Assembly (NCBI GenBank): GCA_947457395.1
Contig: CANGVA010000016.1
Span: 1-48,293, forward strand
Length of the DNA: 48,293 nt
Source: Bacteroidota bacterium
GTDB taxonomy: Bacteria > Bacteroidota > Bacteroidia > UKL13-3
Direction of reading: 5' to 3'
The position numbers and the translations under genes were made by a program. The notes under the pieces were generated by a model. That model saw nothing but the letters and a program-made list of their open reading frames with translations. It ran no database searches and had not been told where the DNA came from. Shown piece by piece: positions 43,903 through 47,087 of the stretch (its first letter is position 1; every line of letters starts with the position of its first letter).

Positions 43903-43962
43903 TTAACATTGGCTTAACAAACAATTGATATTGGATTAACTTAACATTAACCTTGGGGTAAC
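43903..43962 (+). promoter_or_regulatory. Six-unit 11-bp-spaced TTAAC array (candidate Pho box)
   Basis: Units start at 43903, 43914, 43925, 43936, 43947 and 43958 and read TTAAC, TTAAC, TTGAT, TTAAC, TTAAC, GTAAC: every spacing is exactly 11 bp. The wider 8-bp form (CTTAACAT, CTTAACAA, ATTAACTT, ATTAACCT) closely matches the cyanobacterial SphR Pho-box unit PyTTAAPyPy(T/A). A -7 box TAGCTTTG lies at 43984-43991, 21 bp after the last unit, with no -33 TTTG, as for activator-dependent promoters. Confidence 0.7.
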
Positions 43963-43983
43963 TGCTGCTAAAGGGCACGGATA

Positions 43984-43991
43984 TAGCTTTG
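43984..43991 (+). promoter_or_regulatory. -7 box of the TonB-receptor gene
   Basis: TAGCTTTG, an exact TAnnTTTG match, 22 nt before the ATG at 44014. The place of the -33 element is occupied by the TTAAC array. Confidence 0.65.
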
Positions 43992-44013: not shown

Positions 44014-46968
44014 ATGAACAAGGTTTTACAAATAGGTCTCATTAAAATGGTGGTGTTGTTATTATTGGCTGCTTCAGGGGTAAACGCACAAAATAACGGG
44101 AAGATAAGCGGCAAAATAACTGATAAAAAAACCGGAGAGGAACTGATTGGTGTAGCCATACAGGTAGAAGGCACCTCGTTTGGTACAGTTACCGATTATG
44201 AAGGTAAATTTAACTTAAGCATTGCCCCCGGCACCTATAATTTGATATTCAGTTATATTTCTTACAGTAAGAAAATAGTAAAGGGTATTGAAGTAAAAAG
44301 TAAAGATATTACTCCCGTTAATGTTACCCTTGAGCAATCAACCAAAGAATTAAATGAAGTGGTAATACAGGCGGAGGCCAGAAAAGAAACTGCCAGTGCA
44401 TTATTAATTCAACAAAAGAAAAGTGTGGCAATTTCAGATGGTGTTTCAGCTGATTTAATTAAAAGGACTCCGGATGCAACTACAAGCGATGTGATGAAAC
44501 GAGTAAGTGGTACTTCGATTCAGGATAATAAATTTGCCGTTATCAGGGGATTAAATGACCGATATAATACCGCCTACATCAACGGTGCGCCCCTTCCAAG
44601 CACGGAGTCTGACAGAAAAGCCTTTTCATTTGATATTTTCCCATCAAATATGATTGATAATATGGTGATTACGAAAACTGCTTCGCCCGACCTTCCAGGT
44701 GATTTTGCGGGTGGCGTTATTACCATTAACACAAAAGATATACCTGAAAAAAAGTTTATTTCTTTTGGTGTAAGCAGCAGCATTCACAGCATTACAACCT
44801 TTAAAGAAGGTTATCGCGCAAACAGAGGTGGCAATGACTGGATTGGGCTAGATGACGGAACAAGGTCCTTGCCTTCAAATATTCCTGCACGCTTAAGTTA
44901 TGAGCAAGGCACCTTAGGTGAAAAATTTGATAATAGCTTTAAATTTAATGACCAGTGGCAGGCCGAAAATATTCCATCTATGCCGGTGAATACCTCTGTC
45001 AACTTCTCTGCGGGAAGTAATTTTAAAATCAAGGAAAAGCAAGAATTAGGGTTTATTGTATCACTTTCGCGTTCAGAAAATTTCAGGATTGTACCCGTTG
45101 AACGAAACAAGTTTAATAAACCAATGAATGTAGAGGAGAATCAGTTTCGCTCACAAAATTTTGATAGTATCTATAAAAGAGAAGTATTGGTAGGTAGTAT
45201 GTTTAATGTAGGCTGGAAAGCAGGTAAAAATCATAAGATAAGTTTTAAAAATGCATACACCATCAATACAGAAGATCAAACTATTTTTAGATCCGGATTT
45301 GATGATTTGCAAGCTGAAGACCTACCACAACTAAGAAACAGATATTATATCTATCAGCAAAATACTTTATTAAGCAATCAAATTATTGGTGAGCATTATT
45401 TTGTACCAATTAAATTAAAAGCTAAGTGGGTGCTAAATAACAATCAAATCTCACGTCAGATGCCCGACTTCAGAAGAGCCTCTTATCGTTCTACTTTTGA
45501 CGGCTTTTCCGGTGAATACAGCCCTTTTACCTTGCAGGTTGGCCCGAATATTGACATTACCCAAACCGGCCGCTTTTACTCTGACCTGAAAGAAAACATT
45601 CAAAGTGCCGGAGTTGATTTACAATTACCACTGGAATTTTTAACTACCAAGCATATTAAAACTGATCTAAAAGTAGGTGGGTTTATGCAGAAAAGAGAGA
45701 GGGATTTTCAGGTACGTGTTTTTGGATATAAACTACGCCAGATTATTAAACCGGGCAATAAATTTAACTACCAAGATTTCATAACGCAGGATGTAGATAA
45801 GGTTTTTTCAAAATCAAATTTTGCTGAAGATACATTCTATATGGATGAAAGAATTAATCCGCAAGACGTTTATAGAGCAAGCTCTACACTGAAGGCCGGA
45901 TACATCATGTTTGATCAGCGTTTCTTTTCAAGATTCAGAGCCGCCTATGGCGTGCGTATAGAAAGTTACAACCAGCAGATGAATTCATTGGGAAGTGCAG
46001 GAGAACCGGTAAATGTAGATACCACCTTTGTTGATCTGCTTCCATCAGTGAACCTGACCTATGAACTTACAGAGAAAATTAATCTGCGCCTTTCAGGTAG
46101 TAGAACACTTGCAAGGCCTGAGTTCAGGGAATTGGCACCATTTGCTTTTTATGATTTTAATATCAATTCTATGGTGGTTGGAAATCCAAATTTGAACAGA
46201 ACCCAAATTCAGAATTACGACTTCAGATTTGAATATTACTTAGGCGAATCACAATTAGTATCTGCTTCATTGTTTCATAAAAGATTTTCAAATGCCATTG
46301 AACAGGTGTATGAATTTACCGGAAGTGACGCAACACTTGGCTATACAAGTGATGCCAAAGCACAAAATTCAGGTATTGAATTGGAGCTGAGAAAGAATTT
46401 TGCATTTTTAGATAAATTGCTGGGAATAAACTTTGCCAGAAACTTTGCAGTGAATATAAATTATGCTTTTATCCTTTCTGAAGTGATTTTAGATGAAAAC
46501 ATTAGCAAATCCCAATTTGGCACAAGACCACTACAGGGTCAATCTCCTTATATTCTTAATGCCAGCTTACAGTATTACAATCCCAAGTTAAATATGTCTG
46601 CTGCATTTTTTGTTAATCGCATAGGTAGACGTATTGCTTTTGTTAGAGAAAAGAATGGCCTGGTTCCGGATTTATGGGAGAACCCTAGAACCGTGCTTGA
46701 TTTCTCTATCTCTAAATTATTTTATAAGCATATAGAAGTGAAATTCACACTGAGTGATTTGCTTGCACAGGACCTGGTATTTTATCAAGATAATAACAAT
46801 AACGGTAAATGGGATGAGGTGAACACCAATCTAAATCCTAAATCAGGTCCAATTTCACCTTATGTTGACCCTGCAGTACCTATTGCTCAAAAGGCAGCCT
46901 TTGATAATGTAATCTTCCGATATAAAATGGGGATGCAAATTGGCCTTGGTATAGGATTTAAATTCTAA
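44014..46968 (+). CDS. TonB-dependent outer-membrane receptor with carboxypeptidase-like N-terminus
   Basis: 984 aa. Signal peptide about 1-26 (ending VNAQ); a carboxypeptidase-regulatory-like domain (about 30-115, ISGKITDKKTGEELIGVAIQVEGTSFGTVTDYEGKFNLSIAPG); plug (about 130-250, VSADLIKRTPDATTSDVMKRVSGTSIQDNKFAVIRGLNDRYNTAYINGAPLPSTE); then a 22-strand-type barrel (LNLTYEL, SRTLARPEFRELAPF, QNYDFRFEYY) ending in F (GIGFKF). It imports a large or bound substrate with TonB energy. There is no SusD partner, so not a classical starch-type Sus pair. The promoter array suggests phosphate control; the substrate is unknown. Confidence 0.92.
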   Translation: MNKVLQIGLIKMVVLLLLAASGVNAQNNGKISGKITDKKTGEELIGVAIQVEGTSFGTVTDYEGKFNLSIAPGTYNLIFSYISYSKKIVKGIEVKSKDITPVNVTLEQSTKELNEVVIQAEARKETASALLIQQKKSVAISDGVSADLIKRTPDATTSDVMKRVSGTSIQDNKFAVIRGLNDRYNTAYINGAPLPSTESDRKAFSFDIFPSNMIDNMVITKTASPDLPGDFAGGVITINTKDIPEKKFISFGVSSSIHSITTFKEGYRANRGGNDWIGLDDGTRSLPSNIPARLSYEQGTLGEKFDNSFKFNDQWQAENIPSMPVNTSVNFSAGSNFKIKEKQELGFIVSLSRSENFRIVPVERNKFNKPMNVEENQFRSQNFDSIYKREVLVGSMFNVGWKAGKNHKISFKNAYTINTEDQTIFRSGFDDLQAEDLPQLRNRYYIYQQNTLLSNQIIGEHYFVPIKLKAKWVLNNNQISRQMPDFRRASYRSTFDGFSGEYSPFTLQVGPNIDITQTGRFYSDLKENIQSAGVDLQLPLEFLTTKHIKTDLKVGGFMQKRERDFQVRVFGYKLRQIIKPGNKFNYQDFITQDVDKVFSKSNFAEDTFYMDERINPQDVYRASSTLKAGYIMFDQRFFSRFRAAYGVRIESYNQQMNSLGSAGEPVNVDTTFVDLLPSVNLTYELTEKINLRLSGSRTLARPEFRELAPFAFYDFNINSMVVGNPNLNRTQIQNYDFRFEYYLGESQLVSASLFHKRFSNAIEQVYEFTGSDATLGYTSDAKAQNSGIELELRKNFAFLDKLLGINFARNFAVNINYAFILSEVILDENISKSQFGTRPLQGQSPYILNASLQYYNPKLNMSAAFFVNRIGRRIAFVREKNGLVPDLWENPRTVLDFSISKLFYKHIEVKFTLSDLLAQDLVFYQDNNNNGKWDEVNTNLNPKSGPISPYVDPAVPIAQKAAFDNVIFRYKMGMQIGLGIGFKF

Positions 46969-46988: not shown

Positions 46989-47022
46989 ATAGCACAACCT
47001 GAATAGTTGTGCTATTTTTTTT
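46989..47022 (+). terminator. Terminator after the TonB-receptor gene
   Basis: A 10-bp stem ATAGCACAAC/GTTGTGCTAT (46989-46998 and 47006-47015), 7-nt loop, then a run of Ts to 47022. It makes the following gene an independent transcription unit. Confidence 0.92.
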
Positions 47023-47031
47023 GAATCAATC

Positions 47032-47069
47032 ATAACATAGATTTAACATTTGATTAACTATTCTCTTAC
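47032..47069 (+). promoter_or_regulatory. Second 11-bp-spaced TTAAC array (candidate Pho box)
   Basis: Units ATAAC (47032), TTAAC (47043), TTAAC (47054) and CTTAC (47065) are each 11 bp apart. The -7 box TAGGTTTG (47080-47087) begins 21 bp after the last exact TTAAC unit, the same offset as for the TonB-receptor promoter. Confidence 0.65.
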
Positions 47070-47079
47070 TATGGGTATA

Positions 47080-47087
47080 TAGGTTTG
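47080..47087 (+). promoter_or_regulatory. -7 box of the secreted beta-rich protein gene
   Basis: TAGGTTTG, an exact TAnnTTTG match, 19 nt before the ATG at 47107. Confidence 0.6.

Follow-up and report, generated by a model that had tools for sequence, protein, structure and literature searches.

The promoter of a TonB-dependent receptor gene in a Bacteroidota genome carries six short direct repeats with a period of 11 bp, which raises the question of which regulator reads these repeats and to which signal the receptor gene responds. The window, i.e. the whole stretch of 48,293 nucleotides analysed here, makes up contig 16 in a genome of 2.54 Mb and 99.96% completeness, and the features discussed are collected in the table below. 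The repeated words begin at 43903 (TTAAC), 43914 (TTAAC), 43925 (TTGAT), 43936 (TTAAC), 43947 (TTAAC) and 43958 (GTAAC), all in 11-bp phase, and the last unit ends 21 bp ahead of the -7 element TAGCTTTG. Direct reading confirmed this arrangement as described in the initial annotation, together with the absence of a TTTG at the -33 position. Housekeeping promoters of the Bacteroidota combine a TAnnTTTG -7 element with a TTTG at -33; the receptor promoter has the former and lacks the latter, the -33 position being covered by the last unit of the array. Tandem direct repeats with an 11-bp period, placed over the -35/-33 position at a fixed distance from the -10/-7 element, are features of Pho boxes, and both were found here, the last unit starting 26 bp before the -7 element in both promoters of the window. 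The second array, ahead of the next gene, was absent from the initial annotation.

Features of the receptor locus, with positions in the window
Feature	Position	Strand	Basis or remark
Six-unit array, proposed Pho box of PhoB	43903..43962	+	Direct reading, shuffles, ortholog conservation
-7 element TAGCTTTG	43984..43991	+	-33 TTTG absent; last unit starts 26 bp upstream
TonB-dependent receptor, 984 aa (CarboxypepD_reg, Plug, beta-barrel)	44014..46968	+	Pfam
Second phased array (TTGAA 47021, ATAAC 47032, TTAAC 47043, TTAAC 47054)	47021..47058	+	Precedes the next gene
Next gene's -7 element TAGGTTTG	47080..47087	+	Last unit starts 26 bp upstream
Secreted protein, no Pfam match, gene cut by the contig end	47107..48291	+	L032 relative; setting

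The highest six-unit score upstream of the receptor gene is 27 of 30, as compared to a maximum of 22 in 5000 first-order Markov shuffles of the 314 bp stretch upstream of the gene. Over the window, 11 three-unit matches with at most three mismatches were observed, against 3.5 +/- 2.3 in the shuffles, the shuffle maximum being 10.

Receptor matches were identified in 57 of the 78 genomes searched, the own genome included; the closest named relatives are found in a Sphingobacteriales MAG (92% identity) and in a MAG labelled Chitinophaga pinensis (61%). Promoter conservation was examined for the 30 best receptor matches, correctly oriented, and the array was present in 29 of these promoters (at least 12 of 15 on three units), mostly with six or seven units. 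At the same three-unit threshold, the array precedes the next gene in 22 of 27 cases, phoB in 28 of 29 and the pst leaders in 12 of 14 (PstS-like matches under the family cut-off being excluded from the pst counts), as against 9% of 205 other genes. Presence at the pst and phoBR genes of the lineage, another feature of a Pho box, was thus observed. The consensus unit TTAACaTTnnn is common to all four promoter classes. Their mean four-unit scores, out of a maximum of 20, are 17.0 (receptor), 15.6 (next gene and pst leaders alike) and 15.3 (phoB), and the 205 other genes average 11.65. The excess is limited to a period of 11, and TTAAC outscores the permutations of its own letters. The TTTG of the -7 element falls in one register modulo 11 in 25 of 41 occurrences at the receptor, 16 of 21 at the next gene and 10 of 15 at pst, where one in eleven is expected; these counts include promoters of related genomes that are not independent, which makes their p-values overly favourable, and the divergent receptor promoters, with the TTTG in one helical register in 12 of 16, provide the fairer test. 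The phoB promoters carry the array, and the -7 register was not seen in them.

A search of the 78 genomes, with the reversed array pattern as control, examined the association with phosphate genes more widely. The strict pattern of three units and TAnnTTTG gave 23 matches and its control none; about 19 of the 23 belong to the receptor or its neighbour, and pstS and a PiT gene account for one each. Three units followed by TTTG alone gave 60 matches against 9 in the control. Of the 60, 23 lie at the receptor, 9 at the next gene or the gene of a similar secreted protein, 5 at pst leaders, 4 at phoB and one each at Porin_O_P and PiT, which makes 43 in these classes; the other 17 stand away from recognised phosphate genes. 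Three exact TTAAC units without the -7 box (11 matches, control 6) proved too rigid a pattern to help, and two units with TAnnTTTG at three mismatches gave noise (87 matches, control 132). At four loci in relatives (L288, L286, L272 and L112), the array and TTTG stand ahead of genes for endonuclease I, a choice-of-anchor I protein, a metallophosphoesterase and an outer-membrane efflux protein, which on the strength of this pattern are possible further members of the regulon; endonuclease I and the metallophosphoesterase, in the 'other' group, could plausibly be phosphate-scavenging genes and were not counted as support.

Gene neighbourhoods link the same components. The receptor gene is divergent from a phoB-type regulator gene in genomes G065 and G049 and is clustered with porin, pstS and pstC genes in G051. 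In G056 the regulator gene and pstS are transcribed divergently from either side of the array, and in G063 the divergent neighbour of the regulator gene is the porin-pst operon. Since the same strip recurs in relatives at the receptor, at its neighbour and at phosphate-uptake genes, with an unchanged distance to the transcription start, and is also found before the gene of the activator itself, the array is very probably a multi-unit Pho box through which a PhoB-type regulator would switch on the receptor and the neighbouring gene. The phosphate-starvation regulon proposed in the initial annotation is supported by the conservation of the array in orthologous promoters, with the TTTG mostly in one register, by its enrichment at phosphate genes (phoB and pst leaders, and also PiT and Porin_O_P) and by published data from relatives. 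Import of phosphate-bearing compounds by the receptor was a guess of that annotation.

Other explanations of the array assign it to a different protein or to no protein. Another response regulator of the OmpR/PhoB family could bind the array and also control the phosphate genes that carry it; the own genome encodes four proteins with an OmpR/PhoB DNA-binding domain, related regulators can share direct-repeat sites, and the motif of Riemerella PhoP was found to be similar to that of E. coli ArcA (PMC9603813). This is nonetheless improbable, since 28 of 29 promoters of the PhoB-type regulator gene carry the array, this gene is divergent from phosphate-uptake genes in G056 and G063, and the promoter of L067, the sole one examined among the other three regulators, carries no array. 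An activator specific to the receptor locus, with no relation to PhoB or phosphate, would account for the concentration of about 19 of the 23 strict matches at the receptor or its neighbour; yet the same units occur in the same register at the pst leaders (10 of 15) and at PiT genes, which makes such an activator a distinctly less likely candidate still.

The phased words might also be a by-product of AT-rich, curved promoter DNA without specific binding, as AT-rich intergenic sequence commonly contains TTAA words and DNA is bent by phased A/T tracts. Against this, the score of the array lies above that of every shuffle of the same DNA, other promoters of similar AT content lack the 11-bp TTAAC signal, and the reversed pattern gave 0 and 9 matches against 23 and 60. 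These shuffle, promoter and control counts already largely exclude a by-product, whose probability is negligible.

If the array is a Pho box, its operation may be outlined from the biology of PhoB, from which tandem binding, the replacement of the missing -33 element and activation on starvation are all taken. On phosphate starvation, a phosphorylated PhoB-type response regulator would occupy the array head-to-tail, with one DNA-binding domain on each 11-bp unit and the domains on one face of the helix. As the last unit covers the -33 position, the bound regulator would bring the sigma factor to the TAnnTTTG element at -7 in a class II-like activation. The first array would thereby switch on the TonB receptor and the second the neighbouring secreted protein, and the two products may scavenge phosphorus at the cell surface. 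The full-length relative of the secreted protein, L032, has 1334 aa with two domain copies, PKD domains and a T9SS sorting domain at its end; no PDB relative of the secreted protein was found by sequence, and its predicted structure has a mean pLDDT of 31.5 (three sequences).

The own genome (G000), covered by pattern searches and chosen stretches, shows which phosphate components are available to such a regulon. Four sites match TTAAC-N6-TTAAC-N21-TAnnTTTG with no more than one mismatch; they lie ahead of the receptor gene, the next gene, a PiT transporter gene (PF01384) and a thioredoxin-like gene. The phoBR genes, encoding the PhoB-like regulator and a PhoR-like kinase, have TTAAC-N6-TTAAA-N6-TTAAC directly upstream. 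The operon of a porin (Porin_O_P), DUF47 and PiT carries weaker in-phase units (TTAAA, TTAAT, TTAAT) and a -7-like box at a different spacing, and both of these features count against the Pho-box reading. Among the four proteins with the OmpR/PhoB DNA-binding domain, the PhoB-like regulator scores best; its best-matching families are those of PhoB, with scores under the curated cut-offs (229.2 of 296.2 for TIGR02154 and 221.7 of 270 for NF053854), so that on these sequence scores it is not filed as a formal PhoB member. The adjoining PhoR-like kinase (L027:6581-7633) has 350 aa with HisKA and HATPase domains and gave no match to a PAS or any other sensor domain. The genome has PhoB/PhoR-like proteins, DUF47, two PiT transporters and a Porin_O_P, and no match to PhoU (TIGR02135) or PstC (TIGR02138); PstC is also absent from most relatives of the same family. 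Lacking PstC and PhoU, this genome is a test case for phosphate sensing via PiT and DUF47, which by analogy with PitR of Staphylococcus aureus, and assuming that PitR corresponds to DUF47, are a candidate starvation sensor (PMC13170248). A phased TTAAC, TTAAC, TTAAT also stands ahead of the gene of a TrkA-like potassium channel, from which gyrB is divergent (L003, G000 C13:46382-46419).

Direct repeats of TTAACA constitute the PhoP box of Bacillus subtilis, which shares the core word and has a nearly equal period, in another phylum and another kind of promoter. Pho boxes are generally 11-nt direct repeats bound head-to-tail, and that of E. coli PhoB shares with the window array such repeats near the promoter and head-to-tail binding, but differs in its core (CTGTCAT as against TTAACAT here), in having two units by definition and in its sigma-70 -10 box (PMC4415409). 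The initial annotation aptly likened the array to the box of cyanobacterial SphR, in which 8-bp repeats CTTAACCT, at least three in tandem, are separated by 3-bp linkers (PMC1906773) and which hence shares the 11-bp period and the TTAAC core; the regulator and promoters there are cyanobacterial, whereas the Bacteroidota arrays have up to seven units and are tied to TAnnTTTG. Within the Bacteroidota, DAP-seq of Riemerella anatipestifer PhoP, a PhoP/PhoB-type regulator, gave TTTAACA as the most conserved motif bases, with targets that include its own promoter and that of a TonB receptor; in the parts of that report available, an 11-bp multi-unit array or a -7 register is not described, and the motif is compared with that of ArcA and not with Pho boxes (PMC9603813). 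In the phosphate-utilisation cluster PUSIV of F. johnsoniae, the TonB receptor Fjoh_0545 and the secreted protein Fjoh_0546 (the FII protein), encoded beside phoBR, are strongly induced by phosphate depletion; the window pair is like these two in setting, and the text searched gives no box (PMC8115612). B. fragilis PhoB binds the pstC promoter, again with no box given in the part of the report seen (PMC3547664). No earlier explicit Pho-box consensus for the Bacteroidota was found in the open literature searched, the Riemerella TTTAACA motif being the nearest (PMC9603813).

The array is very probably a variant of a known element, the Pho box, and what is new is a defined unit, period and -7 spacing in the Bacteroidota, which would allow phosphate regulons to be predicted from Bacteroidota sequences. 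It would also place an uncharacterised TonB receptor and secreted protein in the phosphate-starvation response. The chances appear evenly balanced that much of the Bacteroidota uses this element as its Pho box, in arrays of up to seven units that take the place of the -33 element, and that in the present lineage it serves a regulon without PstSCAB or PhoU, in which phosphate would be sensed via PiT, DUF47 (PhoU-like) and a short PAS-less PhoR-like kinase, and whose most strongly marked targets are the TonB receptor and the secreted protein, not pst.

Two irregularities of the receptor array recur in relatives. The third unit, TTGAT (43925-43929), is off-consensus, and TTGAT or TTGAC is found in several receptor orthologs too. 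An additional TTAAC at 43941 (43941-43945) lies half a turn past the start of the fourth unit, out of phase with the array, and its TTAA is repeated in several receptor orthologs (TTAACTTAAGG, TTAACTCAAGG). Judging by this recurrence, both the off-consensus unit and the out-of-phase TTAA may be functional.
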